This document shows, one piece after another, positions 44,633-64,000 of a stretch of 64,000 nt of DNA (its first letter is position 1; the number at the start of each line of letters is the position of its first letter). A program made the translations under genes and the position numbers. The notes beneath the pieces were generated by a model. It made no database searches. It was given only the letters and a program-made list of their open reading frames with translations, and was not told where the DNA came from. Source of the DNA: Rhodothermia bacterium (lineage in GTDB: Bacteria; Bacteroidota; Rhodothermia; Rhodothermales; UBA2364); assembly GCA_017303715.1 (NCBI GenBank), contig JAFLBZ010000007.1, positions 62,001 to 126,000 of the forward strand, in the 5' to 3' direction.

Positions 44633-47600
44633 CTAACGGTTAATGATCACACGAAGCGACTTTGCATAGTGTCCAGCTTCCATTCGTACAAAATACACCC
44701 CGTTTGGAATAGCAGTGTTATTAAGCACGACATGGTGTTCGCCCGCAACAAATTGGGTGTTTGACCGAATGGATTGCACTTTCCTCCCCAGTAGATCAAA
44801 GAGTGTCAAATTGACGATTTGCGGATTGGCGAGCCGGAAGACAATTTCGGCTTGGTAAGTGGCCGGATTTGGATACACCGCCAAAAGGTTGGTTTCGACG
44901 GGTATTGACTCGCCCTCGTTTGCAACACTCGTACCCGAAACCACAACATCTGCATAGTGGGTTCCTCCCACGCCATCGCCTACAACATAGGTAAATCCAT
45001 CAGCACCTTTAAAACTTGAGTTTGGTACATAACGCACCTGGCCATTTGCCTGCCATTCAACCACACCATGTTTTGCCCCAAAAACGCCGAGAATTTGCAA
45101 ACGGTCTGCATCTGGGTCAAGGTCATTGTCCAAGACATTGATCTGTGCAGAAGCATGATGATTCACCGCCAAACCATCTTGTATTGCAATAGGCGCGGTA
45201 TTGGTAGCGGGATTAAGTAGAAAAGCACGGGTCTTTCCGTTCAGTAGGCCATATCCCACAATTTGCCCATTCCGGTTTACATCTCTGGCTTCTTTCAACA
45301 CCCAACCAGTACCTGGTGGGATCAGAGCGTTTAAGTCAAAGGTTTTGTCATCCAACCAAAGCACCGCCCTTGTGCTTAAGGCGGCTGTGGTATAAACACG
45401 TTCCATCCTTGCCGAAAAAGCGGCCTTATGGGCCTGAATTTCGGGACCAATACGGTCGTTTTCTTGTTTATAAAGAGCGGCTCCGCTTAACGTTCCGGCG
45501 CCAACAATCCATCCCATATCGCTGATGCCATACGCCTCCGCAAATGTACCGGAAAGGGAGGTCAATGTGGTGGCTGTGGTTCCATTCCAACGCACGGCTT
45601 CCACCACTTCACCCGATTGTCGGCTCCCCACAATGACATCCAAATTATTGATCCGGTACGCCCGACTATCGCCCGCCAAGACCGTTTGGTTACGGAAGGC
45701 TTGTGCCGCTCCCGTCCCATCATAGATGAGACCCGTAACCACTCCGGCAAGGTTAATGTCGAATGCCTCGCTTTGTGGTTTTTCGCCGAAGGTATGGAGG
45801 TTTTCCATTTTGCCAGCAAACGAAAAGGCCTGCATCCGATTGTTGTTATCAAACGAAGCGCCAATCACTTTGCCGCTATTCGAGACCGCATTACCAATGC
45901 TAAAGCCGCCGCCAAGGTGACCCAGAAACTGTACGGGCGCCAATGGCTCGGCAGCACGCCAAAGAAATGCCTCATCAGTTCCGGCAGGAGAACGCATATA
46001 ACCCGTAATAATGCCTGTTTCACTTAAACCAAGCGCTTGTCCGACCGTATTTCCGATGGTGATTAAGCCATTGTTATTCCAGAAGAAAGCACGATCCTGC
46101 CCACTGGCATTTTTGGTAACGCCTACAATTTCTCCCGCATCATTAATGCCCCAAGCACGCGCCGCATTACCAAGAGAATTGACTTCCAAGAGACGATAGG
46201 TGATGGCCTGAACCTCCACCTGAACCAATGCCGAGGCTCTTCCACCTTTCCCATCCGAAATGGTGTATTCAAACCGATCTGTACCTAAAAAACCCCGATT
46301 GGGTGCATACGTAATGGTTTGATTGCTGTTGACAGTTGCGGTTCCATTCGAGGCGGCTATCCCTGACAATGTGACCAAGAGACGATCACCGTCCAAATCT
46401 TGGTCATTTTGCAGTACCGTTACGGTGACGGGCAAGTTCATATTGGTGGCGGCGGCATCGTTCAAAGCCACAGGCGCACGGTTGGGGTTTTGTTTTATCG
46501 AGAGTGCCACCGTAACCGTTTCGGAAAACGCCCCTGTTGCATCTTTTGCGCGATAGGTGAAGTTAATATCCCCAAAGAAGCCAGACGCAGGCACAAAAAG
46601 TACGCTTCCATCGGGCGAGAGCGTAAGGGTTCCCGAAGGTACATTGGCTTGCAAAACAGCCGTCAGCGGGTCGCCATCCACATCACGGTCATTGGCCAAT
46701 ACCCCTGGTGCAGGAATATTAATGGGTGTGGCAAATTCGGCCTCATACGCATCCGTTTGTGCAATGGGTGCATCATTCACCGGCGTGACCTCAACCGTAA
46801 CCAATACGGGCAATGAAAACAAATTTCCGGTATCTTGAACACGATAACGGAATTGATCGAAACCATTAAAATCTTTGTTTGGTTTATACTGAACTTGGCT
46901 GTTAAGCACCTCTACCGTACCATGCGTGGGCAATGTATCTAGGAGAATAGTAAGTGCATCCTCGTCTGGATCGCTGTCGTTTTGCAATACCAAAATAGCT
47001 ATGGGTGTATCCTCGGCGGTTTGTGTCCTATCTGCGGTTGCTATGGGCGCACTATTGCTGTTACGAATGTTAAGCGTGACTGTAGCCGTATTGGATTTTG
47101 CGCCAGATGGATCTACCGCAGCATAGGTAAAGGCATCTTCTCCGGTAACATTCCGGTTCGGGGTATAAACCAATTGTCCTTGCGTATTTGAAGAAAGTGT
47201 ACCTTTGGTTGGTTGCAAGATCACGCCAAAGGTTAACTGGTCTCCGTCAATATCGCGGTCATTGGCCAAGACATTGATCATCACCGGAGCGTTTTTATCG
47301 GTTATCGCAGCATCATTGACGGCAATAGGCGGATCGTTGACGGGTGTGACGCTTACATGAACGATGGCCGCGTTTGACGTAAGACCCTTCGGATCTGACG
47401 CCACATAGCCGAAGGTATCCGAACCATTAAAATCCGGCTTTGGCGTATAACGTAATAAGCCATTCTGTGTTTGAACAACACTTCCATTGGTGGGCTGGGT
47501 AATTGAAGTCACCTCCAGAGGATCACCATTAGGATCACGGTCATTGGCCAATACCTTAAAATCGCTCGCTTGGTCTTCTAATGTTGTAAACTGATCGTCC

Positions 47601-50600
47601 AAGGCCACAGGAGCACGGTTTGGATTTTGACCTACGTCTATGGTGACATTTACCGGAGTTGAACTTGCACCAGCCGCATCCCGAACGACATAGCGGAACG
47701 TAATGGCTCCAGAAAAGTCTTTTGCTGGCGTGAAGGTGAACCCCCCACTTTCCTGAAGGACAAAATCGCCACTTTCGGGTTTTTGCTCCAAAATGGCCAC
47801 CAATTTATCGCCTGTATCGGGATCATTATCGTTTTCTAAAACGCCGGGGCTTGCAATGGTTAGCGCTTGGTTAAAGGCCGTTTGGTAGGTGTCTTCCACC
47901 CCCTTTGGCGGATCATTGACAGGACGAACCACAAGGTTCACACGCGCCGTTCCTGACCTTTCACCTGCCGCATCTTGAACAACATACGTAAAGAAGTCCA
48001 GACCATTAAAGTTGCGAACCGGCGTATAGCGTAATGCGCCATTAGGTAATACGATCACCGAACCATTGGGCGGATTGGTAAAACTTGCCACACGTAAAAC
48101 ATCGTTCAAATCCACATCTACATCATTGCCCAAGACCGCAAGGTCTATCGCTACATCTTCATCGGTGGTGGATTCGTCATTTACGGCATTAGGTGGATCG
48201 TTGACGGGTAGGATGGTCATTCGTACCGTTGCAATATTGGAAAGATTGCCCACCCCATCTCGGACTTGGTAGGTAAATTGGTCACTGCCGTTAATGTCCG
48301 TATTTCCCACATAACGTAACGAACCTTCTTGATCAAGTAGGATTCCTCGTTGTGGTTGCGAAAGAACAATAACGGTTAATTCGTCGTTTTCAGGGTCTGT
48401 ATCGTTGGCCAACAAATTGAGCGTTACAAAAGTGTCTTCATTCACCACCACATTGTCATCTACTGCATTTGGTGGACGGTTTTGAGCGGCCTGTACTTGG
48501 AGGGTAACAGTTGCGGAATTGGATCTTGCACCATTCGCATCTTGCGCTTGATAGGTAAAAATAGCTGTACCGGAGAATGAAAGGGGTGTTGTAAAGCTAA
48601 AACCCCCATCGGGACGTAAAACCACATTACCTGTAGTCGAATTGGTGACCAGAACAGCCGTCAATACCGTTTGCTCTACATCTGTATCATTGGCCAAAAC
48701 GCCCGGTGTCAGAATGTCTAAGGTTGTGCCTGCGGTTGCCTGATACACATCGTTGTTTGCTATTGGTGCATCATTTACAGAGACAACCGTTATATCCACC
48801 GCGACCGTTACAGAAGTTGCGCCACTGGTGTCTGTAACACGATAAGTAAATTGGTCAGCCCCAAAGAAGTTCGCATTGGGTTTATACACCCGATTGTTTT
48901 GTTGGTCAAAGCCTAACGTTCCATTGGTGGGTTGTGAGACAACTCCCACCGTTAACACATCCCCATCCACGTCCGAGTCATTGGCCACAAGGTTCAGAAT
49001 AACTTGCGTATCTTCATTTGTCGAGTACCGATCGGGCTGAGCAATCGGTGGATCATTCACGGGTCGAATAGTAAGGGTCACGGTTGCAGCACCCGAAGTC
49101 GCTCCGGCGGGGTCTTTAGCACGATACGTAAAGGTATCTACCCCATTCACGTCTTTATTGGGTGTATAAACCAATTGTCCTTGTTGGTTGGTAGAGAGCA
49201 GCCCCTTGGCGGGCTGGGTCAAGACCTCAATCGTTAGCGGATCTTGGTTGGGATCGGTATCATTGGCCAGCAAGTTTAGGTTTACTGCGGTATCTTCGTC
49301 CGTAGTGATTTCGTCTTTGACAGCAACGGGTGGGCGATTGGGATTTGCCCCGACCGTGATGGTGACTTGTGCTACACCAGAACGCGCACCTGACGGATCT
49401 TTGGCTTGGTACGTAAAACCAACCTCGCCCGTAAAACCAGCTAAGGGCACAAAAGTAAACCCGCCATTTGCAAGCAAGGTAAGGGTTCCCGAACTTACAT
49501 TCGAGATCAACACGGCTTCCAAAACATCGCCATCCACATCCGAGTCATTTGCCAAAATGCCCGGCGCTTGCACATTCAGCGTGGTATTAAAATTGGTTTG
49601 ATAGGTATTTTCCGTAGCGATAGGTGCATCGTTAATCGGGCGAACGGTAATATTCACCTTAACGGCCTCCGAACGTGCGTTGTCTGTATCCTGCACCAAA
49701 TACATAAACTCATCCGACCCATTAAAATCAGGATTGGGCTTATAGATTCGTTGACCTTGTTGGTCAAAGGTAAAGGTTCCATTTTTAGGACTGGAGGCAA
49801 TAACGACCGTCAATGTACCTCCTTCAGCATCGGAGTCGTTTGCCAATAGGTCTAACAAAATGGAAACATCCTCATCGGTGGTATAATTATCGGCAGTTGC
49901 CACAGGCGGGTCATTTACTGGTGTAACTATAATCTTTACCTGTGCGGTATTAGAACCGGCCTGTTGTGGATCTTTTGCTTGATACGTAAAGTCATCTGCC
50001 CCAAAAAAGTCTTTATTGGGCGTATAAATCCAAAGATTATTGACCAACGCCAAGGCTCCATGTTTGGGTTGAGTGATGGGCTGTGCGGTCAGTACATCGC
50101 CATCCGGATCGGAATCATTAACGGTTAAATTGAGGGAGACAGGCACATCTTCGGGCGTCGTCACTTGGTCTTCTTTAGCTGATGGTACATCATTCACCGG
50201 CAGAATGATGATGGTTACGGTGGCATGATTTGACGTTAAGCCTTGTGGATCGGTGATGGAATAGGTAAAGGTATCACTTCCATTAAAGTCACCATTGGGC
50301 GTATAAACCCAAGCGCCTTGTTGATTTTTGGCGACAACACCATTTTTTGGCGTGTTTTCTATGGATACACGTTCGTCGCTTAAGGAAAAATCATTGTCTG
50401 GATCGGCATCATTTGCCGTCAACAAAAGCGTAACAGGGAAGTCTTCATCGGTTTCATAGGCATCATTACTTGCGATGGGCGCATCGTTTATGGGGCTGAT
50501 GGTAATGGTCACCGTAACTGTTTGAGACACTGCTCCAGAGAGGTCTTTTGCCCGATAGGTAAATTGGTCAAGGCCATTGATATTTGTATTGGGGTGGTAA

Positions 50601-53600
50601 AATCGTTGTCCTTGTTGGTTTAAGAAAACCTGTCCTTTTTTGGGTTGATCAACGATTTCCACTGTTATCAGGTCGCCATCCACATCCTTATCATTTCCGA
50701 GCAAATCCAACAGCACTTGGGTATCCTCATTAGTCACATATTGGTCATCGGCGGCAGTTGGGGCGTCATTTATGGGAATAATGGTAATGAAAACCAGCGC
50801 CTCGTTGGAGTTTGCCCCCGATGGATCCTTAGCCACATATACGAAAGCATCGTTCCCATTAAAGTCTTTGTTTGGGGTGTAAACAAGTTGTCCTTGTTGG
50901 TTTAAGGCAAGTGTACCATTTTTGGGAGAAGTAAAAGTGGCAATTGTAATCGGGTCTTGATTAGGGTCGGTATCATTGGCAATAAGATTAAGTACGAGTG
51001 GTGTATCCTCATTTGTGCTTACCCGATCCTCAACAGCAACGGGAGGTTGGTTGGGGTTTTCTCCTACAGTAATGACCACTCGCACAACATCTGAACCTGC
51101 ACCATCTGGGTCACGAGCAAAATACCCAAAGTTCATCTCTCCCGTAAAGTCTTTTGCAGGATCAAAGGTAAAGCCACCGTTAGGAAGTAAGGTTAATATG
51201 CCTGAAGCGGGGCTTCCCTCCAGAACTGCGGTTAGCTGGTCGCCATCCACATCTTCGTCGTTGTCCAAAATACCGGGGGCTGCCACAGTAAGTCGTTGGT
51301 TAAAGCCCGTTTGATATTGGTTTGGCCGTGCAAGTGGCGCATCATTTATAGGGGTAATCTTGACGAATACCGTTGCGAGTACCGAAAGTGCCCCAGTCGG
51401 ATCTTTTGCTTGATAGGTGAATTGGTCTTCACCATAATAATTGGCCTTGGGCGAATAAACATACTGCAACGTTTGTGGCGAAAAAGTAAATGTGCCATTT
51501 TGGGGCTGGCTTACCACCTGAATCGTTATCGGATCGTTGTCTAAATCCGAGTCATTTTTCAACAAATCCATAGTGATAGGGGTATCCTCGCTTGTTCCGA
51601 AGCCATCATCTTTGGCAACGGGTGCATCATTGACCGCCCTTATTGTTATCCGTACCGTTGCAAAACTGGAAACGGCGCCTTGACTGTCTTTAATGCGGTA
51701 GGTAAAGGTATCCGTGCCAAAAAAATTGGCATCGGGCAGATACACAAGTTGTTGTTGTTCGTTCAGGACAAACGTGCCATTTTTAGGGCTTGTTCGGTCG
51801 TCTAAGGAAAAGGTATGTTTGTCTGGGTCGAAATCGTTCGTTAATAACTGCGTCAATGGAAAGTCCGTATCTTCGTCTATCGTAACGTCATCATTTACAG
51901 CAACCGGAGGCTGGTTGGTTGGTGTAGTGGCATCAATACGCAAGAAAACGATTCCGCCTTCACGATTGATGCTCCATTGTTTCCCCTCTCCCAAAGGTGG
52001 CAAGGTGAAAGACGGTTTGTTAAAATTCAGGTTTTCCGCCTCAATAATGTTAAAAACCCGCCCAATCGGTTCATCTGCAACAGAGCCATCCACATCAACC
52101 ACATTCACCGAGCCGGCCAAATCTAAAGTCCCATTTACCTTAAACAAATCTTGTTGGTTGCTTGAAAGATCCATTTGAAGGTCAATATTATTAATGGATG
52201 CTGGATCACCCGACGGAACGATGGTAAGCGTTCCGAAACGGTTATAGCTCTGGTCATTGCCCGGCGAGAAGATACCGCGATTGGTTGTTGCACCAGAGAG
52301 TACGAGGTCTTGAGAACCCGCAAGGGTTGCATCAAATTCGTTTAGAAAAGTACCGGAGATTTCCAAACTTCCGCTAGATACGGTCAATATGCCCTTATTG
52401 GTGTAATCGGAAGCGATTTTACTGGAAGTCTGGGCTGTTCGGCTTGTACTTGATCGTAGTGGCTTCGTCGAGTTATTGGTTAGCAGGACATCCCAATTGC
52501 CTGTATTTTCTATTGCCCCACTTCTTTCTTTAATGGTTAGGATGTTTGCTTCTTCTTGAAAGACTACGCCTTGATTATGGAGGTCGCCATCACTCAAAAT
52601 CACTTCAGATCCCGGATCGAAGCGTGCCGTACCTGTAACCGTCCAATGCGCTTTATTTTCTAACTGTAGGGTTACGTTGCGGCGCACATAAGCGCTTCCT
52701 GTTGTCAAAAATTGGATCCCATTACCGAGATGATTCATGGGACGTGTTTCCCCTGAAAGATCGGCTAAGAAATTAGCATTTTCTCTTACTTCAAGCCGTC
52801 CACCCTGAATTCGACCAGCGTCCACATAAGCCCTTTGTGCGAGCAGGTCTTTTTCGAGAGAGAGTGTAGCATGTGAAACCGACAAATCATTTACAAACGT
52901 ATTTGTTTTTAAAAATACTTGGGCACCCTCATTAATGCTAAGCCTACCGATGTTAACATCAGCAGTCGCCTCAATAGAAGCGGAACCACCCACAAAAAAC
53001 ATCTGCCCTCCCACCCCAATAGAGGTGTTTTGTTTGGCTTCTTTTTTTGGAAGGTTGCTCCCCGCTTGAAAAACCGTAAAATTCCAGTTACCCAGATTAA
53101 AAAAGTAGTCTCCCGCTCCAGAAAAAGCGGCAAAAGACGTGATTTCATGTTTTTCGTGCGCCGCAGTCAAACTAAGAGTCCCTCCTTCAGCGACACTTAC
53201 CCCTGCATTTGTAAACCAATAAAATGGGTTTCCGAGTGTCTCCTGCATTTTCATTTCGAGTGATCCTTTTTCAACAAGGATGTCCCCAAACATGAGTACG
53301 CCAGACAATGTTGCCTTGCCGCCACCGGCTTTGGTCAACTGGCCTGATATATTGATAGAAGTTATAGGCTCCGAGGCCAAGTCAGCTTCAAAATAAACAT
53401 CCTGCTCACCACTGATGTGCATCGAACGGGAACCAAAGTACGTCGAAAGACTCCCACCCTGCATAATCACACTCATCGGGTTGTCTTGAGGAGAGATGAC
53501 ATTAAGATCACTTTGATATAAAAGGTTGCTTTTTATCAAAATGAGTTGATTACCATACATTTCACTTACACCAAAAACACTCATGCTCACCCCATCCAGC

Positions 53601-53962
53601 CGCCCGCCATTCCAAACAAACCCATCATTGACCGAATAAAAACCACCTCGTAATGCGCCATTTTCTAAGTGTAACTTTATCACCTGTACGGAGGGTGCTT
53701 TTAACACAATGGCAGGCGAGGCAACCTTTAAAAGGTTAAGGGAAACAAAATCGTTGGGGCTAACCTCTACCGTTGTGTTTCCGGTAGCCAAGTCCAAGAT
53801 GGCGGAATCTCCCTCCTTTGGAACCCCGATAGGATTCCAGTTTTCAGGATTTCCCCACGAAGACCCAGATTTTCCAGTCCAAGTATAGGTGGTTTGTGCA
53901 AAAAGTGGGGGTGGGATCAAACAGAACAGAAAGCCCAGTACCCAAAAATAGCATGATCGCAT
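44633..53962 (-). CDS. Giant T9SS-secreted cadherin-like repeat protein with HAF block
   Basis: 3109 residues. Signal peptide MRSCYFWVLGFLFCL with cleavage after LFA. Residues about 25-640 are beta-helix-like (TWTGKSGSSWGNPENWNP at the start). From about 680 to 2585 come 20 tandem modules of about 95 residues, each with an 'NDAPVA-x-D...EDT...ND-D-DGD' core (tandem-95/cadherin-like). About 2590-2915 hold seven HAF repeats (GINDAGEIVG, GLSETGIITG and so on). Then one more cadherin module (about 2919-3015) and a T9SS type A sorting domain with YPNPATY and LLGRKVQSIR. Acidic motifs suggest calcium binding. Probably a surface adhesin. It shares a 413-bp divergent control region with the other giant gene. 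Confidence 0.93.
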   Translation of the reverse strand: MRSCYFWVLGFLFCLIPPPLFAQTTYTWTGKSGSSWGNPENWNPIGVPKEGDSAILDLATGNTTVEVSPNDFVSLNLLKVASPAIVLKAPSVQVIKLHLENGALRGGFYSVNDGFVWNGGRLDGVSMSVFGVSEMYGNQLILIKSNLLYQSDLNVISPQDNPMSVIMQGGSLSTYFGSRSMHISGEQDVYFEADLASEPITSINISGQLTKAGGGKATLSGVLMFGDILVEKGSLEMKMQETLGNPFYWFTNAGVSVAEGGTLSLTAAHEKHEITSFAAFSGAGDYFFNLGNWNFTVFQAGSNLPKKEAKQNTSIGVGGQMFFVGGSASIEATADVNIGRLSINEGAQVFLKTNTFVNDLSVSHATLSLEKDLLAQRAYVDAGRIQGGRLEVRENANFLADLSGETRPMNHLGNGIQFLTTGSAYVRRNVTLQLENKAHWTVTGTARFDPGSEVILSDGDLHNQGVVFQEEANILTIKERSGAIENTGNWDVLLTNNSTKPLRSSTSRTAQTSSKIASDYTNKGILTVSSGSLEISGTFLNEFDATLAGSQDLVLSGATTNRGIFSPGNDQSYNRFGTLTIVPSGDPASINNIDLQMDLSSNQQDLFKVNGTLDLAGSVNVVDVDGSVADEPIGRVFNIIEAENLNFNKPSFTLPPLGEGKQWSINREGGIVFLRIDATTPTNQPPVAVNDDVTIDEDTDFPLTQLLTNDFDPDKHTFSLDDRTSPKNGTFVLNEQQQLVYLPDANFFGTDTFTYRIKDSQGAVSSFATVRITIRAVNDAPVAKDDGFGTSEDTPITMDLLKNDSDLDNDPITIQVVSQPQNGTFTFSPQTLQYVYSPKANYYGEDQFTYQAKDPTGALSVLATVFVKITPINDAPLARPNQYQTGFNQRLTVAAPGILDNDEDVDGDQLTAVLEGSPASGILTLLPNGGFTFDPAKDFTGEMNFGYFARDPDGAGSDVVRVVITVGENPNQPPVAVEDRVSTNEDTPLVLNLIANDTDPNQDPITIATFTSPKNGTLALNQQGQLVYTPNKDFNGNDAFVYVAKDPSGANSNEALVFITIIPINDAPTAADDQYVTNEDTQVLLDLLGNDKDVDGDLITVEIVDQPKKGQVFLNQQGQRFYHPNTNINGLDQFTYRAKDLSGAVSQTVTVTITISPINDAPIASNDAYETDEDFPVTLLLTANDADPDNDFSLSDERVSIENTPKNGVVAKNQQGAWVYTPNGDFNGSDTFTYSITDPQGLTSNHATVTIIILPVNDVPSAKEDQVTTPEDVPVSLNLTVNDSDPDGDVLTAQPITQPKHGALALVNNLWIYTPNKDFFGADDFTYQAKDPQQAGSNTAQVKIIVTPVNDPPVATADNYTTDEDVSILLDLLANDSDAEGGTLTVVIASSPKNGTFTFDQQGQRIYKPNPDFNGSDEFMYLVQDTDNARSEAVKVNITVRPINDAPIATENTYQTNFNTTLNVQAPGILANDSDVDGDVLEAVLISNVSSGTLTLLANGGFTFVPLAGFTGEVGFTYQAKDPSGARSGVAQVTITVGANPNRPPVAVKDEITTDEDTAVNLNLLANDTDPNQDPLTIEVLTQPAKGLLSTNQQGQLVYTPNKDVNGVDTFTYRAKDPAGATSGAATVTLTIRPVNDPPIAQPDRYSTNEDTQVILNLVANDSDVDGDVLTVGVVSQPTNGTLGFDQQNNRVYKPNANFFGADQFTYRVTDTSGATSVTVAVDITVVSVNDAPIANNDVYQATAGTTLDILTPGVLANDTDVEQTVLTAVLVTNSTTGNVVLRPDGGFSFTTPLSFSGTAIFTYQAQDANGARSNSATVTLQVQAAQNRPPNAVDDNVVVNEDTFVTLNLLANDTDPENDELTVIVLSQPQRGILLDQEGSLRYVGNTDINGSDQFTYQVRDGVGNLSNIATVRMTILPVNDPPNAVNDESTTDEDVAIDLAVLGNDVDVDLNDVLRVASFTNPPNGSVIVLPNGALRYTPVRNFNGLDFFTYVVQDAAGERSGTARVNLVVRPVNDPPKGVEDTYQTAFNQALTIASPGVLENDNDPDTGDKLVAILEQKPESGDFVLQESGGFTFTPAKDFSGAITFRYVVRDAAGASSTPVNVTIDVGQNPNRAPVALDDQFTTLEDQASDFKVLANDRDPNGDPLEVTSITQPTNGSVVQTQNGLLRYTPKPDFNGSDTFGYVASDPKGLTSNAAIVHVSVTPVNDPPIAVNDAAITDKNAPVMINVLANDRDIDGDQLTFGVILQPTKGTLSSNTQGQLVYTPNRNVTGEDAFTYAAVDPSGAKSNTATVTLNIRNSNSAPIATADRTQTAEDTPIAILVLQNDSDPDEDALTILLDTLPTHGTVEVLNSQVQYKPNKDFNGFDQFRYRVQDTGNLFSLPVLVTVEVTPVNDAPIAQTDAYEAEFATPINIPAPGVLANDRDVDGDPLTAVLQANVPSGTLTLSPDGSVLFVPASGFFGDINFTYRAKDATGAFSETVTVALSIKQNPNRAPVALNDAAATNMNLPVTVTVLQNDQDLDGDRLLVTLSGIAASNGTATVNSNQTITYAPNRGFLGTDRFEYTISDGKGGRASALVQVEVQAITYRLLEVNSLGNAARAWGINDAGEIVGVTKNASGQDRAFFWNNNGLITIGNTVGQALGLSETGIITGYMRSPAGTDEAFLWRAAEPLAPVQFLGHLGGGFSIGNAVSNSGKVIGASFDNNNRMQAFSFAGKMENLHTFGEKPQSEAFDINLAGVVTGLIYDGTGAAQAFRNQTVLAGDSRAYRINNLDVIVGSRQSGEVVEAVRWNGTTATTLTSLSGTFAEAYGISDMGWIVGAGTLSGAALYKQENDRIGPEIQAHKAAFSARMERVYTTAALSTRAVLWLDDKTFDLNALIPPGTGWVLKEARDVNRNGQIVGYGLLNGKTRAFLLNPATNTAPIAIQDGLAVNHHASAQINVLDNDLDPDADRLQILGVFGAKHGVVEWQANGQVRYVPNSSFKGADGFTYVVGDGVGGTHYADVVVSGTSVANEGESIPVETNLLAVYPNPATYQAEIVFRLANPQIVNLTLFDLLGRKVQSIRSNTQFVAGEHHVVLNNTAIPNGVYFVRMEAGHYAKSLRVIINR
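45196..46205 (-). repeat. Seven HAF repeats inserted before the last cadherin module
   Basis: Repeats of about 40-50 residues with the core 'a.giN..G.ivG': GINDAGEIVG, GLSETGIITG, AVSNSGKVIG, DINLAGVVTG, RINNLDVIVG, GISDMGWIVG and DVNRNGQIVG, most followed by an AF.W strand. This matches the extracellular HAF repeat family, likely a beta-propeller. It splits the cadherin array between modules 20 and 21. Confidence 0.85.
46206..51925 (-). repeat. Array of 20 tandem 95-residue cadherin-like modules
   Basis: Period about 285-286 bp (95 residues). Most modules carry the pattern 'NDAP-A-DD...T-EDT' and 'GxLxxxxQGQxVYTPNxDFNGxDxFTY'. Five modules are a second type lacking EDT and instead having PGIL.ND and LTAVL, starting near 51350, 49640, 48785, 47930 and 46790. 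These are spaced 6, 3, 3 and 4 modules apart, and four of the five are followed by a NPN(R/Q)PPVA-type linker. Confidence 0.9.
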
Positions 53963-54375: not shown

Positions 54376-57300
54376 ATGGTAAAATTCCCCTTCCGTCATT
54401 GGTCAGGACTTTTATTTTTCTTGCTTACAAGTCTTACCATCGGCATGTCTTCGGCTTTTGGTCAGGGTACAGTTCGTATCACCATTTCGGGTGTTCCGAC
54501 GGTTTTACAAACGCCTTATTTAGCAGAACTTCAACGCGATTACCAGATTGGGCGCTTCCCTGTCCAGTTGGTGTATAGCCATGCTTCGCGACAACCGGGG
54601 ACATTTCGGTTCCAGCTCACATTAACCTTAGATGGCCAAGAAATTGTGTCCGAGACCTCGCCGGATGTCACCATTCGGCCCGGAGTTTACACATATCGTA
54701 CTTTCAAGGATGCGCCGGAGATCATTTTTCCCGATTTAGCCACCCTGATCAACAAACTCCCTGCTGATCTGCAAACACGGATAAACCAAACCGGAACATT
54801 ACCGGAGGGTCGTTATGAACTAACCTTAGAAGCCACCTCGACCGATGAAGAGCAGTTTATCGTCTCCCCGCCCGCCACGATCTCCTTCACCGTTTCGTTC
54901 CCAGAAGCCCCTGTTTTATTGTCTCCTTCGGATGAAGCGGTTGTTTCTCAAGCCCAACCCATTTTTACGTGGTTACCTGTCATTGTTCCAGCCACCCAGA
55001 CCGTAGAATATCAATTTAGGATGGTGGAAATTTTACCCGGCCAAACCACCGACGAAGCCTTTCGCGGAAACAGAACCCAAGTAGAGTCTGCGTTCCAGCG
55101 GGGCACAACGTTTGTGTATGGCCGCGACTTACTGCCTTTGGGAGTAGGCAAGCGATATGCTTGGAACATTAAAGCACGAACGACCTCTGGTTCCCCCATT
55201 GCCCAAGACGGCCAAAGTGAAATCTACACCTTCTCATATGGCGTGGGTCATGCACCGGATGACGTTTTGGCGCAACTCAGGCAAATTGTTTTGGAACAAG
55301 GCTTGGCCACCCTCACTAATTTCTCCGATTTAGTACTGACAGATGAAGGAACGACTTGGTTATTGAATGGCCCGGCCACCCTGAACCTGACCTCGCCAAC
55401 CACCGAGCAAGTAACGGTTAACTTAGAAAATATTCGTCTTCAAAAAGGCTCATTGGACGTACCAGTATTGCTCGATGGCTCGGTTTCTGCGCGTTTACCT
55501 GGAGATTCTAGCTTATTACGTGGTTCTTCTGGTGGATTGTTTGATGTCCGCCTTCTCCGCTGGACGTTTGGGCGCGGCTTCACTGCCGAAGGCGCTATCC
55601 GGCTCCCCAATGGCAACCTAAGTCCGGCAACCGGAAGTTTACGGTTTTCACGGAGTGGTTTCTCCGGAGAACTCATCGCCGAAGGCTCCGGTAGCACTCT
55701 ATTGAGCTTAGGGAGTTCCAATCAGCAACTCATGTTGAACCGGATTCGTGCCCGTTTTCCAGAAAACCAACTGAGTGGCTCCGGACAATTCCGCCTTAAC
55801 AATACAACTTGCGCTTTAGATGATGTGGTTTTTACGAGTGGTGTACAAGACTTGTTGATTAATTGCGCCCTCAACCAATCCATCCAAGCCGTACCTGGAT
55901 CTAATTTGGTGCAATTACAATTAGACCGACTGCAAGGGCGGCTCCGCTTTGATGTGGGTGCTGGCAATATGACGCCCGAACTGTCGGTGAGTGGTCGCTT
56001 GGCGCTTCAGGTGTCGGATGGCTCTTGTGCAGCAAATCTTAATGCGGATATCACCGGAACGGGATGGCAGATCAGAGACCTTTCTCCAATTTGCAACCTG
56101 CCCAAATTGCCGTTGGGGCTTTTTGACCTCAACCTGAGCAATCTGCGTATTCCGCTTTTGGCCTATGATGCCGGACGCAACGAGTGGGATTTTGCGATTG
56201 ATTTAGATGGCCAATTTTCTGGTGGCATTTTGGGCGAGACACGACTGCCGCGCATCCCAAACATCCGTTTAACGCCATCAGGACTTACCTTCCCAAGTTA
56301 TGTCTTGGCTTCGGGTACATTTCCACCGATTCATCTCCCCAATTTAGGCCCATTACGCGGCCAATTAACGGCACTTCGTGTGCCCGTTTTCACCCTGAAT
56401 GCCTTTAGCCTTACCCCAGATGCATGGCAACCAGTGGTAATGGACTTTGCCTTCCGGCTTTCGGAGAGCCTTCCGTTGCCCGCTTGTATGCAAACGCCAC
56501 AATTTACCGTGCGTGATTTCCGTTTTAACGATGGCAATTTCATTATGGATTTAGGAAATCTCACGCCATCGGGCTGCGAATTGCCTTTAGGAATTGCCCA
56601 AATACGTCTGAACCAACTTAGTGGACAGGTGAATGGGCGTTTTGCGGGAGGACGGTTTAGCGCAACACCACAACTTTCTTTGGGCGGAGCTTTACGTTTT
56701 GGCGCACCGTTCACTTGTAGCGGCACCGAGGAAACCTTGCTTCCAGCCAACCTAACATTAGATTCCACAGGAAGACTTGTGGGACAGCTTGAAAACCTTG
56801 CACCTTCTTGCCCACTTAATCTGGGTTTTGGCAGTGGGACTTTAAGATCTGCCAACCTCATTCTGGGTAATACGGGGGGCACGCAAACCGCTCGTTTAGA
56901 GGCAAATGCGGGTTTAAACCTCAATCTCTTTGGTCAAAGTGGTGTAATGGCTGAAGGTTCGCTTAACCTAGACTTAATCACAGGCCGGTTCTCCACTTAT
57001 AACTTCAACCTCACATCGGGATTCACCCTTCCCTTCCCTTCGAGAGAAAGCCCCCTCTTCACCTTCCAGCTAAACAGTGGATTGAATTTGTCGCAAAACG
57101 GGCTTGCCTTATCCGGAAACCATGCCATACAAATTGGAACCGACAACATCCCTGTGCAATTTGATCGTGCAATGTTTGACTTAAACACGCTGCGCTTAAC
57201 ACAAGGACTTGGACAAATTGGCGGACGTGGCGCCGCTTTTCAGCTGGCCTATTTGATGAATGAAGGCCGATTTACCTCCTTCCCTTCTACAATGCCACTC

Positions 57301-60300
57301 CCCGACCAAAACCTATTTGGCATACGGGTAGAATCGGTAAACCTCACCCCAACTGGATTGGCCTTTTCGGGAAATGCAACCGGACAACTCCGGTTTGGAG
57401 GTACGACGTTTGGGACGGATCGGCTTCAACTACGGTTCACCGATTTCACCCTTGCCACGGATCCAATCGCCGTATCAAGGGGCAATACTGGCTTTTTTGT
57501 GGACGGGAGCCGAATTGCAACCTTTGATGCTTCAGGATTTCGCTTAGAACCCAGCGGTATTTTGGCTGCTTTACCATTGCCCACACATCTACCATTGCCC
57601 CGAACTGATTTAGCCTTTTTACGCTTACGAACAACCGAAGCGGGACCATTATTAATCAATACAGAGGATTTGGGTGGCGGTAGGTTACGTCTTTTCACCC
57701 GTTCTGGTTCGCCCATTCAATTGGTTTTAGCGGGATTGGCAAATGGTTCTACCCCACCTTCCATCGGCGCTACCTTCGACTTGGTCGTCAATAATGGTGA
57801 CTTTGCGATTCAAGAAGTCCGCGCCTTCAATGTAACGACTTCGGTAGATGTCAACCGTGCGTTATTCGGAAGTTCACCCTTACAACTTACCCGTTTTATT
57901 CTTTCCGGTGTTGGTTCGGCCCTTGCGCTTCATGCGGATGTACAGATGGCCTTGCCTACCGACCTCTCCCCCGATCCTTTGGTAGTCCGGAACCTCAGGT
58001 TGAGCGAGCGTGGATTTGAAGAAGCCGAGGTTTTGACAACGCTAAACCTGCCCGACCGTACCACCGGAACACTTCGCGGACGGTTATCTGCAAATGGGAC
58101 AGGTCTTAGCGGGTTTTTGGCCTTAGAACGTGCTTTTTCGCTTGGCGCAAGTCCTGTGCAACTTTCCCTTTCTGGACTTAGGTTACAATTTCCTTCCACA
58201 CAACTTACGGGAAGCGGGGTGCTTCGATTTTTCGGTGGAAGACAATCTTGTGCGGTAACAGATTTTGTTCTTGGTGGCACTGCTGGCATGGGGAACATTG
58301 ACTGCCGGATTGACGAAGCCCTCCAATTGGTTCCAAATAGCAACCTCGCCACCCTGAACTTAGGACGGATAACCGGAAGAATCGGATATACAGGCGGACG
58401 ATTTACGCACGATTTACAATTTGCCTCAAGTCTGGGTCTTGACATAATGAATGGTCCACGTTGTGGTGCAAACTTAAACCTACGTTTTACAGACACTTCT
58501 GGACTAAACGCTTCCGATTTCCGGCCAGATTGCTCTGAGACGCCGCGCCTAAATCTGGGCGCATTAGAAGCACTTTTTGCCAATTTGCGCGTACCTTCTT
58601 TGCAGTTTAACAACCTCACTGGACGATTTGATTTTGAGCTACAAACCGATCTTAAGTTGGCGGGTGCCTTCTTAGGTGCGCAAGGACTGCCATCCCTCCC
58701 CGGTATTCGGATTCGGCCAACAGGCATTACATTCCCCGATGTCAATTTTAATGCGACGCAACTTGCAGAGCTAAGACCCTTTGATTTTGGTGGTGTACAA
58801 GCACGGGTAAATGCCTTTTCCATGCGCGGTTTCACGTTCGATTGGTTTGGGCATACGCCCGACTCGCCGGGTAATTGGGATGCACAAGTTGGCCTGAACA
58901 TCAACCTTGGCAATGTTACCGAGATCCCGAGATGCCTCCAGAGTACAGCGTTTCCCTTAAGCCTAAATGTTTCTGGAAGTCGCCTAAATGCTACCTTACC
59001 CGTGCAAACCTTGCGCGACTGTAGCCTCCCACTGGGCCCAGCAGCTTTGGAATTAACCGGCATTGGCGGAAGTATAACCGCCGCTTATGAATCGGGACGT
59101 TACAACCTTGCACCTATATTCTCGCTCAATGGAAACCTGCGGCTCTCAGATACCTTTACGTGTACCACAAGTTCTACCATGCCTCTCGGAACTGCCGCCC
59201 TTAACCTCTTGCCAAATGGCTTGGTTCTCGGCAATGTCACCGCCAACATTCCAGAAACCTGCTCCTTACAATTCGGCCCATTCCGCGCATCTGCGGGACG
59301 CACCACCCTGATCCTTGACCGCTCAGGCGACAACCAGACGGCCACCTTAGACGGTATTGCTCGCTTAGTGATTGGGGATAGTGCCCCTTTTGATGGCACA
59401 TATAACCTTAATTTGTTTACAGGACGACTCAATACTTATCGGTTTGCCCTAAGTGCCCCTTTCGTTCTAATGGTTCCACCAGAAAGTCCGGTATTCAGGT
59501 TTAACATTACCGCTGGCGAACTTTCCGACGCTGGATTCAACATTAATGGCATCAACACTTTAGAGGTTGGTGGATCGCAAATCCGTTCGACCTTCGACAA
59601 TGTGCGGCTCAATCTTTCCACCTTGGCCATTGAGAGCGGGCAAATCCAGATTGCTTCCGGCATGGGCTTAGAAGCGGGCATTGGTTCTGGGGGTGCATTA
59701 CGTTTCAACGCAATACATGAGACCCAACCCGCCTCGGTCAATCCGGGCTTGATCTTGCGGCTTGGCTCCACCATCACGATAGACCGGAGCGGGCTTGGCC
59801 TTGGCGGACGTGGTTCTGCCGCGCTCAACTACCGCCCTGAAGGTGGCAAGGTTTTGAATTTACCACGCTTGGATGTGGATTTTGGGTCTGGTTTTTCGTT
59901 TAATTTTAGCCCCTTCAACGTAGGGACGGGACGGGCAAACCTCTTGGACGGAACCGCCATCATGGGCTATATAGACCGCGCTGGCATACAAATTAATCCG
60001 GGTTATCTCGTGAGCCGCTTATTGCCCGAACGATTGCCGCTTCCATCCGAAACCGTAGCCTATTTGCAATTGCGTAGAGGCGGAACAGCTTTGGTAGAGG
60101 CCACCTCCGAGGCCGGAGGGCGTGTTCGATTAGCCATCAAACGCGGTGAAACGGTAAACTTGGTGTTTCCAGCATTGGCTCAAGGTGGCCGGACACCAGA
60201 GGTTCCTGTAACTTTTACCGACGTTGTGTTCGATCCAGCCCTTTTACAAATAACGGGCGGAAGTATCACGGCGGATGTTTCGGGGCTATCAAGTTTTGTC

Positions 60301-63300
60301 TTGCCCGATCAATTCCCCATGCAACTGCGCAACATCTTATATGGCGAACGCACGGTTGCTGGACGTACCATTCGCGGCTTATTCCTCACTGGTAACCTCC
60401 GCATGTTGGGCCAGAATTGGGATGGCGATTGTCCAGCCGCTTTTCAGGTCTTAGAAACCGGACGACTTTCTGGAAGTTTGACATGCACAGGCATCAATCA
60501 AAATATTCCGCTTCCGGGTGTTGACAATTTTGCCTCGCTACGCATCACAGGGCTAAATGGCGCACTTGACTTAGCCCTGCCCGGCATTTCTGCTGGAGCA
60601 ACCACCGTGAATTTTGGATTAGAAGGCCGAATTAACCTTAACAGCGGCGGAAGCGAAATGGCAAGACTTGGCTTTACCGCTACACTAAACAATGGTATAT
60701 TTACCCTCAATACCACTGCCGAGGGGCGACAACCAGAAGGTTTACCTCGTTTGGATTTTGGGCCATTTGGCATGGGCATTACCCAATTACGCAACCTTAG
60801 CCTAAGCATAAATAGCGGCTCATTGCGGTTCGGTGTAGGTGCAGACTTAAATTTCCGCATTCGGATGCAAGATGGCTCGTTCGTGAACATTCCCGCTCAT
60901 GACGCCTATTTTGGAACGGACGGTTTCCGCCTGCCCTCTATTCAACTAACGGGACGAACCTTGGCCGATCTGGGCATTGCCCCCATCACCTTAGGGCCGA
61001 TTCAGATCCTGCCTACTCAAATTCGCATCCCGTCCCTTAATCTTAGCAGCCTTACCACCTTAAGTGCGGATCTCTTCGCCCAACTTCTTCCAACGTTTGA
61101 CCTAAACTTCAGGATGCCCTCCGTCTCTGGTTTGTCCACCGATCTTGCCACGACCGATATTCCCTTCAATAATGTCACCTTCCGAAATGGTATCTTTTCG
61201 GGAACCTTGGGCAGTTTCGACTTGCCCGGAAGCGGTATTGTGGTTCCTTTTGGAACGGATGCCGGCCTACGGGTGCGGCAAATTATGGCACGGTTCTTCG
61301 AGGATGCTGGACGACAAGGCGTGGATGTACGATTTAATGGCGGGCTTCAGTTCCCGTCTGCTTTTGGAGATACCCGATCTTGTATTGCATCCCTTTCGGC
61401 GGCACTATCAACAACGGGCGATATTTCGGCGACCGCTACGGGCGTTGCCCCTTGTGGGACACTCACTTTTGGCCCCTTAAGTTTACGATTTACCCGCTCG
61501 GACTTGGCGCTCTCGTTGGGCACTTCCACTTCCGCGACTTTAGAAGGTGCTGCCGAGGCAACCCTCAGAACTCCGGATGGTCAAGTACTAACCGCCACCG
61601 GCGATTTGGGTGTAAACCTGTTGAACGCAACGCTTACCCGCTCCAATATCATACTCAATGGCCCATTCGTGTGGCAAATTCCATCCGACCGTGCCTTACT
61701 TTCCTTTACCATCAATAGTGCACGCCTCAACAATACCGGACTTACCTTCGACGGGGCCGGACAATTGGACGTTCCCGGTGCCCCCGTTGGTGTTCGGTTT
61801 AATACCGCACAATTTGGGTTTGATGGCCGGATGAATGGCGGAAGTGTGTCCTTCACTTCTGGTTTTGGGTTTGATATTCCCTTAGGCGAAGGAACCCAAT
61901 GGCGTTTGGTGGCAGCAAGTGCCGCAGATGCCGTCGGAAATTTCTTCCGCCTCAACTTGCCCAGTGGCCTTAGCTTGGATCCAAGTGGGTTATTGGTCAA
62001 TGGAACCGCCTCGGCACGCATTAATTATGGAACGCAGCGATTTAATGAAAGCCAGCTTAGTCTCAATTTTGCAGGATTCCGCATAGGGTTTTCTCCATTT
62101 GGCATTTCAGATGGCCGTGTTGATCTAAATACCCAAGACGCAGGAAGAACCGTCCGAATTGCCTATTTTGACCGTGACGGCTTCCATCCAGACAATCTTT
62201 TGGCCGCACTTCCGCTTCCTATACGGCTTCCCCTTCCAGATGCCCAACTTGCTTATTTGCAACTTCGCGACACTGGTGGAACGCTCCTGATCGAAACCGC
62301 CGACGAAGGTAGTGGGCGCTTGGCCGTCAGAACACGTCCGGGTTCACCGATCAATCTTGTTATTCCAGCACTACGTGGTTCTAACCCCACCGACCCTACC
62401 TTGCCCGTACAGTTCGAGTTTGTCCTTAATACAGGCGATTTCACCGTTCGGGAAGTGCGGAGTTTTGTTGCGAATGGCGCTCCAGCTTTAAATGCCGCCT
62501 TATTTGGTTCAGGGAGTCCGATCAATTTGCAACGGTTTGACCTCACCGGAAATGGGGTTGGATTGGCACTTCTAGCAGATTTAACCGTTACCTTGCCCAA
62601 TGCCGTATCTTCCGATCCCCTTTCCATTCGTGGTATTCGCATTAGTCAACTTGGCTTTGAAGAGGCAAACATTAATGCCACACTGAACATGCCCGGTGGC
62701 GGTGGGCCAGCCAATGTAACTGGATTGTTGCGCGGTGGATCGGGCGGGCTGGTAGGAGAACTTTTGGCCCGTGCAGATGGGGTTCGCCCAATTCTCCGCA
62801 TCGGCACGCAGCCCATCGAAGCCGCCCTGACGGAACTGCGCATCCAATTCCCCGACGTCCGCATTTCCGGAAATGGAGGCGTTTCTTTGATGAATGGAAC
62901 CCCAACTTGCGCCCTTAACAACTTTACGCTTTCCGGCGAAACCAACAACCTAAACTTCTCTTGCTCGCTTGCACAACGCCTCCAATTGGTTCCCGGAAGC
63001 GCTTTGGCCACACTCGGCGTAGCCTCCCTCTCTGGCGACCTCACCTTTAATGCCCGCACCAATGCTTTTGGATACAACCTGAATGCCTCTGGCGATCTGG
63101 CGATGCAAGTCGAGGGAATGGCGGCTTGTGGTGCAACTTTAGACCTAAGCATCTCCCACGTTACGGGATTTGCTGCACGAAACGTCCGCCCAAATTGTAG
63201 TGGAACCCCACAGTTGAACCTTGGCTTTTTGAATATGGGTTTCAGAAACCTGAACCTTTCCACCTTAGCATTCGATCCTGTTTCCCGACGTTTCTCTTTT

Positions 63301-64000
63301 GAACTGGCGATGGATGCCAACCTCACCGTTCCCACGTTCAATAACCTTCAGTTGCCCCAAATACCCATCCGGCTAAGCGAGTCTGGAATCCGGTTTAACC
63401 CTTTTAATTACAATGAAACCGACCTCACGGGATTGGGTGCATTTAATCTTGGGTTTGCTCAAGCAAGGATCACCGGATTGCGTTTGGCGGCTCCATTTAC
63501 CTTTAATTGGTTTACGCACGACGGGACGACCGCCGGAAATTGGGATTTTGCCTTTGATCTACGGATGAACCTCCCCAGCGGCCCTGAATTTCCGGCTTGC
63601 CTCCAAACTTCAGGTATTAACCTAAACAATTTGCGATTCTCCGGTGCAGGTGTCAGTTTCAACTCGGCCATTTCTGCTATTGGAAGTGGTGGATGCAATA
63701 TCCCTATGGGGCCTGCTACCTTGAATGTGAGCGAATTAAGTGCCCAACTCGATGGCTCGTTCAACAACCGTTCCTTCAACCTCGCACCAACCATTCAAAT
63801 TGCGGGCGGCATCAACCTTGGAGCGCCCTTTACTTGCTCTGGCCCACCACGTCCACTCAGTTTAGGGACAACCCGCCTCAATATTGGCCCCGGCGGATTG
63901 ATTCAAGGGCGGATTGAGAACCTCGCGCCCTCGTGCCCCCTTCAATTCGGAACCTATGCGGCTTCGGTTAGCCGTGCGAACCTCATTTTTGGCGTTTTGG
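54376..64000 (+). CDS. Giant secreted Cys-paired super-repeat protein, 3' end beyond window
   Basis: An open frame of 3208 codons without a stop, running off the window end. The ATG at 54376 gives a signal peptide (LLFFLLTSLTIGMSS, cleavage after AFG). Residues about 30-290 are beta-sandwich, with a fibronectin-like segment (APVLLSPSDEAVVSQAQPIF) similar in style to TANFOR-type N-termini. From about residue 440 onward come four large super-repeats, all strand-rich (L-x-L-x-G patterns) and with paired cysteines. The alternating strands recall AsmA/TamB-like or adhesin folds, but I recognise no family. The reading frame is supported by unbroken length and by repeat conservation at the protein level. 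Confidence 0.88.
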   Translation, partial: MVKFPFRHWSGLLFFLLTSLTIGMSSAFGQGTVRITISGVPTVLQTPYLAELQRDYQIGRFPVQLVYSHASRQPGTFRFQLTLTLDGQEIVSETSPDVTIRPGVYTYRTFKDAPEIIFPDLATLINKLPADLQTRINQTGTLPEGRYELTLEATSTDEEQFIVSPPATISFTVSFPEAPVLLSPSDEAVVSQAQPIFTWLPVIVPATQTVEYQFRMVEILPGQTTDEAFRGNRTQVESAFQRGTTFVYGRDLLPLGVGKRYAWNIKARTTSGSPIAQDGQSEIYTFSYGVGHAPDDVLAQLRQIVLEQGLATLTNFSDLVLTDEGTTWLLNGPATLNLTSPTTEQVTVNLENIRLQKGSLDVPVLLDGSVSARLPGDSSLLRGSSGGLFDVRLLRWTFGRGFTAEGAIRLPNGNLSPATGSLRFSRSGFSGELIAEGSGSTLLSLGSSNQQLMLNRIRARFPENQLSGSGQFRLNNTTCALDDVVFTSGVQDLLINCALNQSIQAVPGSNLVQLQLDRLQGRLRFDVGAGNMTPELSVSGRLALQVSDGSCAANLNADITGTGWQIRDLSPICNLPKLPLGLFDLNLSNLRIPLLAYDAGRNEWDFAIDLDGQFSGGILGETRLPRIPNIRLTPSGLTFPSYVLASGTFPPIHLPNLGPLRGQLTALRVPVFTLNAFSLTPDAWQPVVMDFAFRLSESLPLPACMQTPQFTVRDFRFNDGNFIMDLGNLTPSGCELPLGIAQIRLNQLSGQVNGRFAGGRFSATPQLSLGGALRFGAPFTCSGTEETLLPANLTLDSTGRLVGQLENLAPSCPLNLGFGSGTLRSANLILGNTGGTQTARLEANAGLNLNLFGQSGVMAEGSLNLDLITGRFSTYNFNLTSGFTLPFPSRESPLFTFQLNSGLNLSQNGLALSGNHAIQIGTDNIPVQFDRAMFDLNTLRLTQGLGQIGGRGAAFQLAYLMNEGRFTSFPSTMPLPDQNLFGIRVESVNLTPTGLAFSGNATGQLRFGGTTFGTDRLQLRFTDFTLATDPIAVSRGNTGFFVDGSRIATFDASGFRLEPSGILAALPLPTHLPLPRTDLAFLRLRTTEAGPLLINTEDLGGGRLRLFTRSGSPIQLVLAGLANGSTPPSIGATFDLVVNNGDFAIQEVRAFNVTTSVDVNRALFGSSPLQLTRFILSGVGSALALHADVQMALPTDLSPDPLVVRNLRLSERGFEEAEVLTTLNLPDRTTGTLRGRLSANGTGLSGFLALERAFSLGASPVQLSLSGLRLQFPSTQLTGSGVLRFFGGRQSCAVTDFVLGGTAGMGNIDCRIDEALQLVPNSNLATLNLGRITGRIGYTGGRFTHDLQFASSLGLDIMNGPRCGANLNLRFTDTSGLNASDFRPDCSETPRLNLGALEALFANLRVPSLQFNNLTGRFDFELQTDLKLAGAFLGAQGLPSLPGIRIRPTGITFPDVNFNATQLAELRPFDFGGVQARVNAFSMRGFTFDWFGHTPDSPGNWDAQVGLNINLGNVTEIPRCLQSTAFPLSLNVSGSRLNATLPVQTLRDCSLPLGPAALELTGIGGSITAAYESGRYNLAPIFSLNGNLRLSDTFTCTTSSTMPLGTAALNLLPNGLVLGNVTANIPETCSLQFGPFRASAGRTTLILDRSGDNQTATLDGIARLVIGDSAPFDGTYNLNLFTGRLNTYRFALSAPFVLMVPPESPVFRFNITAGELSDAGFNINGINTLEVGGSQIRSTFDNVRLNLSTLAIESGQIQIASGMGLEAGIGSGGALRFNAIHETQPASVNPGLILRLGSTITIDRSGLGLGGRGSAALNYRPEGGKVLNLPRLDVDFGSGFSFNFSPFNVGTGRANLLDGTAIMGYIDRAGIQINPGYLVSRLLPERLPLPSETVAYLQLRRGGTALVEATSEAGGRVRLAIKRGETVNLVFPALAQGGRTPEVPVTFTDVVFDPALLQITGGSITADVSGLSSFVLPDQFPMQLRNILYGERTVAGRTIRGLFLTGNLRMLGQNWDGDCPAAFQVLETGRLSGSLTCTGINQNIPLPGVDNFASLRITGLNGALDLALPGISAGATTVNFGLEGRINLNSGGSEMARLGFTATLNNGIFTLNTTAEGRQPEGLPRLDFGPFGMGITQLRNLSLSINSGSLRFGVGADLNFRIRMQDGSFVNIPAHDAYFGTDGFRLPSIQLTGRTLADLGIAPITLGPIQILPTQIRIPSLNLSSLTTLSADLFAQLLPTFDLNFRMPSVSGLSTDLATTDIPFNNVTFRNGIFSGTLGSFDLPGSGIVVPFGTDAGLRVRQIMARFFEDAGRQGVDVRFNGGLQFPSAFGDTRSCIASLSAALSTTGDISATATGVAPCGTLTFGPLSLRFTRSDLALSLGTSTSATLEGAAEATLRTPDGQVLTATGDLGVNLLNATLTRSNIILNGPFVWQIPSDRALLSFTINSARLNNTGLTFDGAGQLDVPGAPVGVRFNTAQFGFDGRMNGGSVSFTSGFGFDIPLGEGTQWRLVAASAADAVGNFFRLNLPSGLSLDPSGLLVNGTASARINYGTQRFNESQLSLNFAGFRIGFSPFGISDGRVDLNTQDAGRTVRIAYFDRDGFHPDNLLAALPLPIRLPLPDAQLAYLQLRDTGGTLLIETADEGSGRLAVRTRPGSPINLVIPALRGSNPTDPTLPVQFEFVLNTGDFTVREVRSFVANGAPALNAALFGSGSPINLQRFDLTGNGVGLALLADLTVTLPNAVSSDPLSIRGIRISQLGFEEANINATLNMPGGGGPANVTGLLRGGSGGLVGELLARADGVRPILRIGTQPIEAALTELRIQFPDVRISGNGGVSLMNGTPTCALNNFTLSGETNNLNFSCSLAQRLQLVPGSALATLGVASLSGDLTFNARTNAFGYNLNASGDLAMQVEGMAACGATLDLSISHVTGFAARNVRPNCSGTPQLNLGFLNMGFRNLNLSTLAFDPVSRRFSFELAMDANLTVPTFNNLQLPQIPIRLSESGIRFNPFNYNETDLTGLGAFNLGFAQARITGLRLAAPFTFNWFTHDGTTAGNWDFAFDLRMNLPSGPEFPACLQTSGINLNNLRFSGAGVSFNSAISAIGSGGCNIPMGPATLNVSELSAQLDGSFNNRSFNLAPTIQIAGGINLGAPFTCSGPPRPLSLGTTRLNIGPGGLIQGRIENLAPSCPLQFGTYAASVSRANLIFGVL
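55705..58137 (+). repeat. Super-repeat unit A of the giant plus-strand protein
   Basis: About 811 residues. Opens with SLGSSNQQLMLNRIRARFPE. Four cysteine pairs, by codon start: 55810/55864 (17 residues between), 56026/56092, 56485/56575, 56716/56809. The tail has the LAALPLPTHLPLPRTDLAFL block near 57545. Confidence 0.85.
58138..60300 (+). repeat. Super-repeat unit B of the giant plus-strand protein
   Basis: About 721 residues. Opens with SLGASPVQLSLSGLRLQFP. Cysteine pairs at 58249/58303 (17 between), 58462/58531, 58933/59020, 59161/59260. Tail block ERLPLPSETVAYLQL near 60030. Confidence 0.85.
60301..62796 (+). repeat. Super-repeat unit C, lacking cysteine pairs 2 and 3
   Basis: About 832 residues, the most divergent unit. 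Pair 1 at 60430/60484 (17 between) and pair 4 at 61381/61453 are kept. Pairs 2 and 3 are each missing both cysteines (positions near 60661-60730 and 61120-61215). Tail block ALPLPIRLPLPDAQLAYLQL near 62200. Confidence 0.8.
62797..64000 (+). repeat. Super-repeat unit D, cut by the window end
   Basis: At least 401 residues. Opens with RIGTQPIEAALTELRIQFP. All four pairs present: 62908/62962 (17 between), 63127/63196, 63598/63694, 63835/63934. The close likeness to unit A (LAPSCPL in pair 4 of both) suggests A and D are nearer to each other than to C. Confidence 0.85.

Follow-up and report, generated by a model that had tools for sequence, protein, structure and literature searches.

Giant proteins and predicted outer-membrane barrels of the Bacteroidota

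TANFOR proteins are a polymorphic-toxin class of the Bacteroidota and are probably substrates of the type IX secretion system (T9SS). Their genes have neighbors encoding Fn3, PKD, SprB, and T9SS-tailed proteins, and many, albeit not all, of them carry C-terminal toxins, one of which, BaCT, has been shown to be a DNase (PMC7073777). Their description in 2020 did not settle by what route they pass the outer membrane (Jana et al., PMC7073777). In a second described arrangement, represented by SprB with SprF and by PG1035 with PorP, the type B cargo binds its own outer-membrane barrel (PMC9143113).

The window analyzed here, a 64,000-nucleotide stretch of DNA from a member of the Rhodothermia (contig C7:62001-126000 of the host genome, G000), ends within the gene for a giant repetitive protein, designated giant A. 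Its repeats had initially been annotated as a possible new surface- or export-associated architecture. The view of an exported giant is borne out, with a candidate outer-membrane barrel partner and a T9SS-tailed neighbor, but the TANFOR-like N terminus, the existence of two-unit relatives, and a phylum-wide gene cassette mean that this architecture is not an isolated novelty. By sequence comparison, giant A is an expanded member of a TANFOR-like giant family found in a three-gene unit, O-N-F, in which O is a ~580-aa predicted outer-membrane barrel, N is a TANFOR-like or giant protein, and F is a ~680-aa Fn3 protein.

Organization of giant A and its neighborhood

The plus-strand frame starting at position 54376 remains open, as initially annotated, up to the end of the window (54376..64000) and continues for a further 9.5 kb to C7:135533. 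The complete gene N (C7:116376-135533) encodes a protein of 6,385 aa (680 kDa) that begins with a leader and an N-terminal module, continues with five repeat units, and closes with three further parts, namely, a beta region that is conserved, a helical one, and a set of Fn3-like domains. The Sec-type leader, recognized by inspection, comprises aa 1 to 29 (MVKFPFRHWSGLLFFLLTSLTIGMSSAFG/Q; 54376..54462, plus strand). The N-terminal module, delineated with hhalign, combines a TANFOR-like half (aa 30 to 177; 54463..54906, plus strand) and an Fn3-like half (aa 178 to 295; 54907..55260, plus strand) with the pattern ..P.F.W.P....YE.R.VE.....

When the N-terminal module of the giants was compared by hhalign with eleven TANFOR-like proteins of the phylum, which themselves match the TANFOR model TIGR02542 weakly (21 to 37 bits), the whole module gave a probability of 100 (E = 6e-43) and the Fn3-like half alone a probability of 99.9 (E = 2e-37), all E values being those of single comparisons. 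The TANFOR half alone gave a probability of 97.5 (E = 7e-12), and one of 42 with a smaller comparison set. The N termini of giants A, B, and C did not match TIGR02542 (curated cut-off, 67 bits) at E values up to 10, and no protein scored over that cut-off in genomes G000 to G002. A match of the module to TIGR03769 (20 bits versus a cut-off of 30.9) was below threshold and was discarded. As judged from the profile alignments, the N-terminal ~300 residues of giant A are a divergent TANFOR+Fn3-like module; since the protein fails the TIGR02542 cut-off and has no recognizable toxin domain (see below), it is referred to here as TANFOR-like and not as a family member.

The conserved beta region (aa 4295 to 5190), the helical region (aa 5191 to 5710), and the Fn3-like domains (aa 5711 to 6385) are all encoded on the plus strand beyond the window. 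The first part of the beta region resembles a half unit (probability 60 to 80); only its C-terminal part resembles giants C and D and the L108 protein (probability 90 to 95). A phage Rz-like match in the helical region (17 to 18 bits) was below the cut-off and was taken as a chance coiled-coil match. Gene N is directly followed by its gene F, a 696-aa Fn3 open reading frame at about C7:135546-137633. On the other side, the minus strand (44633..53962) encodes a divergent neighbor, a tandem-95 (cadherin/VCBS-like) protein of 3,109 aa that contains HAF repeats and carries a sorting domain of T9SS type A; similarly tailed tandem-95 proteins also adjoin the cassette in genomes G009 and G159. Giant proteins are common in the host genome, in which two more open frames, of 11,584 and 10,542 aa, terminate in T9SS sorting tails (G000:C18:76173-76400 and C9:106796-107020).

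The O-N-F cassette

In the host genome, each of the giants B to D has a gene O (~580 aa) in front of it; behind A, B, and C lies the Fn3 gene, F (~660 to 700 aa). Giants C (2,099 aa; L012:3561-9857, minus strand) and D (3,708 aa; L013:7794-18917, plus strand) contain the N module, carboxypeptidase-regulatory domains, and a beta C terminus ending in Trp, and represent another body type within the same cassette. Giant A has no adjoining O gene, and an orphan O gene with no giant beside it is found at C3:42729-44345 (L099:10577-12346). O and N genes number four each in this genome, and giant A and the orphan O occupy matching places in the respective trees.

Outside the genus, 23 complete O-N-F cassettes were detected in 21 genomes. 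The O profile has matches in 134 of the 296 Bacteroidota genomes, the weaker and partial of which may represent other barrels. Among 24 O loci that were neither used for the profile nor orthologous to those used, N lies directly downstream in 16, and two more show the order N-F-O. Full-length homology links the O proteins of the giants with those of TANFOR-like genes (E = 6e-61), and the respective F proteins are homologous too (E = 7e-48). The O and N trees are congruent, with a Mantel r of 0.92 that was reached in none of 1,000 permutations (none exceeded 0.42), an agreement that partly reflects species history; the congruence holds also for paralogous pairs inside one genome. By these trees, O and N have co-diverged.

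None of the 10 O proteins tested has a Pfam match, Omp85 and POTRA included, and no relative of O was found in the PDB. A C-terminal Phe, the usual mark of outer-membrane barrels, is present in 30 of the 31 O proteins. The conserved neighbors O and F point to a dedicated surface-delivery unit, and no description of this three-gene unit was found in the literature searched. Co-diverging with the TANFOR-like proteins next to it, the predicted barrel O offers a concrete, deletable candidate for their outer-membrane crossing.

Relation to type IX secretion

SprA failed as a discriminating test for O: it scored over the cut-off in all 69 genomes tested. Because genomes without O are positive just as those with O, the T9SS link does not discriminate between them. 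The host genome encodes 81 T9SS tails over the cut-off, and searches of giants A to D revealed neither a type A nor a type B tail. The C terminus of giant A matched no CTD family in Pfam or NCBIfam, the last ~180 aa having been scanned with Pfam only. The O proteins did not match the PorP model TIGR03519 even at an E value of 10, and no protein over its cut-off was detected in any of the Rhodothermia genomes tested, including the host; the same test gave 5 to 9 matches per Flavobacteriia-like genome. TIGR03519 barrels are also present in several other O-bearing genomes. Not detected over the cut-off in the Rhodothermia tested yet encoded in O-bearing genomes elsewhere, they indicate that O is a separate family and not a mere substitute for PorP.

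The close pairing and co-divergence of O and N, and the lack of T9SS tails on N, would also suit a two-partner style of secretion, in which O alone exports N independently of the T9SS. Such export is improbable, given that O shows no similarity to Omp85/POTRA or other Pfam domains and that SprA is encoded in every O-bearing genome tested.

Repeat units and their history

The body of giant A consists of five units of ~740 to 813 aa (typically ~780), one more than the four successive units initially annotated. Units 1 (aa 391 to 1203; 55546..57984), 2 (aa 1204 to 2001; 57985..60378), and 3 (aa 2002 to 2750; 60379..62625) are encoded on the plus strand entirely within the window. Unit 4 (aa 2751 to 3555; 62626..64000, plus strand) is cut by the window end, its true end being at C7:127040, and unit 5 (aa 3556 to 4294) became apparent when the plus-strand frame was followed beyond position 64000. 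The repeat itself is real: all unit pairs align at 38 to 167 standard deviations above shuffled sequence, and unit-versus-unit BLAST E values are as low as 1e-84. The cysteine anchors noted previously at 55810, 58249, 60430, and 62908 are in-frame Cys codons, each starting an exact C-X17-C block, and their spacings of 2439, 2181, and 2478 bp are correct; a fifth such block starts at aa 3572, beyond the window.

The suggestion that every unit contains the same ordered set of blocks proved inexact, because four Cys pairs are seen in units 1, 2, and 4 but just two of them in units 3 and 5. Overall, 36 of the 37 cysteines fall in successive pairs. Likewise, of the LPLP-LPLP tail initially assigned to each unit, units 1 and 3 have an exact version and units 2 (LPERLPLP), 4 (LPDRLPVP), and 5 (IPARLGLP) degraded ones.

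In trees of the first halves of the units and their relatives, two types are separated with support of 100/100, type a (units 1, 2, and 4) and type b (units 3 and 5). Trees of the second halves show a similar but weaker split, with the second half of unit 1 placed unsurely. Units 2 and 4 are sisters in both their first and second halves, as are units 3 and 5 in their second halves. Homologues, for which a search in other Rhodothermota had been suggested initially, were found in other Rhodothermia, the group to which that name refers here. Nearly all unit-bearing relatives, which come from several families, have exactly one a-b pair, i.e., two units (G008, G013, G096, G100, G085, G077, G087, G078, G061, and the same-genome paralogue, giant B). 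The five-unit form was seen in the host genome and its two genus mates, with unit identities of 73 to 90% to one of the mates, and no unit was found in the bodies of the smaller TANFOR-like proteins compared. Since nearly all of the relatives carry a single a-b pair and five units were seen in this genus, the trees indicate that an old two-unit body grew to five units in a single lineage. The half-unit trees thereby show a route by which giant surface proteins grow.

The five units (aa 391 to 4294) contain only 5 Lys versus 259 Arg in 3,904 residues; the other proteins of the window average 4.5% Lys and 4.5% Arg. Lysine makes up 0.10 to 0.15% of the units in the genus mates and 3.35% in giant B. 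Some relatives in other families are lysine-poor as well, which in their case may reflect genome base composition. As the diverged units, 3,900 residues in total, are all lysine-poor, this near absence of lysine appears to be a product of selection.

Predicted fold of the unit

The units have no match in Pfam, NCBIfam, or PDB sequences, in accordance with their initial assignment to no known repeat family, and aa 1 to 3208 matched no Pfam family at E values up to 1, those of the AsmA, TamB, and DUF type included. The AlphaFold2 model of unit 2, built from nine sequences, is an all-beta antiparallel meander with 64% strand (pLDDT 79.8, pTM 0.47); the first half of the unit, modeled alone, gave a pLDDT of 79 and a pTM of 0.59. 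The modeled strands are amphipathic, with an odd/even hydropathy difference of 2.6 versus 1.6 in shuffled sequences (0 of 2,000). Fold searches with the two models returned nothing significant: the best Foldseek E values were 4e-3 and 1.7e-2, and the best VIA Z scores were 6.0 and 6.4, with rmsd above 30 (33 for the Z score of 6.4). The weak neighbors, among them LptD, VDAC, LBP, ushers, OspA, the LPD-3 complex, and the ApoB-100 belt, are just other long meanders, and the unit is therefore assigned to none of the fold families; it can be regarded as a large protein domain without a family in the libraries searched.

With their amphipathic meander, weak structural neighbors such as LptD, LBP, the ApoB-100 belt, and the LPD-3 complex, and the barrel partner O, the units might be thought to form a repeating-beta-groove (AsmA/TamB/VPS13-like) channel, periplasmic or envelope spanning, that hands lipid or polysaccharide to O. 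This is as unlikely as export by O alone: in addition to the lack of an AsmA/TamB/DUF match and of a significant fold match, giant A has a cleavable leader instead of a membrane anchor, and its Fn3 tail and Fn3 partner fit the cell exterior.

Proposed role of giant A

The preferred reading, for which the chances appear evenly balanced, is that giant A, as N, is the cargo of a cassette, O-N-F, for delivery to the surface and is both exported and anchored with the barrel O. Sec would take N to the periplasm, where O would collect and anchor it; passage outward could be provided by the type IX translocon, as SprA is present, or by O itself. Outside the cell, the units would fold into a long disulfide-braced beta stalk by which the helical and Fn3 portion at the C terminus is kept at a distance from the cell; F may serve as an accessory surface protein. 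The partner of giant A, which has no adjoining O gene, might be the orphan O. The five beta-rich units arose via duplication of the ancestral two-unit block. The role of such a protein is likely to be in adhesion or contact, with adhesion judged most likely.

A polymorphic-toxin carrier, in which N is the chassis, the units are a spacer, and the C terminus (helical and Fn3) or F kills other cells, would be in keeping with the homology of the N module to the toxin-bearing TANFOR proteins and with the separate region past the units, but it is the least probable alternative, as Pfam searches of the C-terminal 1,927 and 1,177 residues returned no toxin domain (only weak fn3 and the chance Rz-like coil), F comes next after N with no small immunity-like gene between them, and the ends of giants A and B are alike, not polymorphic.

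Delivery to the surface with O can be tentatively extended to a broader proposal, itself less probable than the role suggested for giant A. O-N-F may be an as yet undescribed delivery system that spans the Bacteroidota, with the O proteins as a new outer-membrane barrel family, distinct from PorV and from PorP/SprF; each barrel would both export and anchor a single TANFOR-like giant, cognate to it and devoid of a T9SS tail, and the cargo in Rhodothermia would be a nearly lysine-free stalk lengthened by two-unit duplication.

Comparison with known systems

Two-partner secretion (TpsA/TpsB) differs in its transporter, as O has no Omp85-type or POTRA match. Repeating-beta-groove and AsmA-TamB-like proteins share with the units the predicted long amphipathic antiparallel beta meander; unlike them, giant A is exported, apparently without an inner-membrane anchor, and its units match them neither in sequence nor significantly in fold.

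Similarly to TANFOR proteins (TIGR02542), giant A has a leader, an N-terminal TANFOR+Fn3-like module, and a large size, and it comes from a member of the Bacteroidota with a T9SS and with Fn3 and T9SS-tailed neighbors. It differs from them in falling below the family cut-off, in having neither a toxin nor an immunity gene, in the body of the giants, made of ~780-aa beta units within proteins of 4,000 to 6,400 aa, and in the O-barrel partner, of which the paper on TANFOR proteins gives no description (PMC7073777). The SprB/SprF and PG1035/PorP pairs differ by the type B tail, which was not found on giant A, and by their barrels, from which O is distinct in sequence (TIGR03519). What they have in common with it is a giant repetitive protein (669 kDa for SprB versus 680 kDa for giant A) and a dedicated outer-membrane barrel encoded nearby, which in the O-N-F cassettes is O, as predicted from its sequence. 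Giant A would be a surface-displayed beta stalk, similar to SprB/SprF in its working but not a member of that system.
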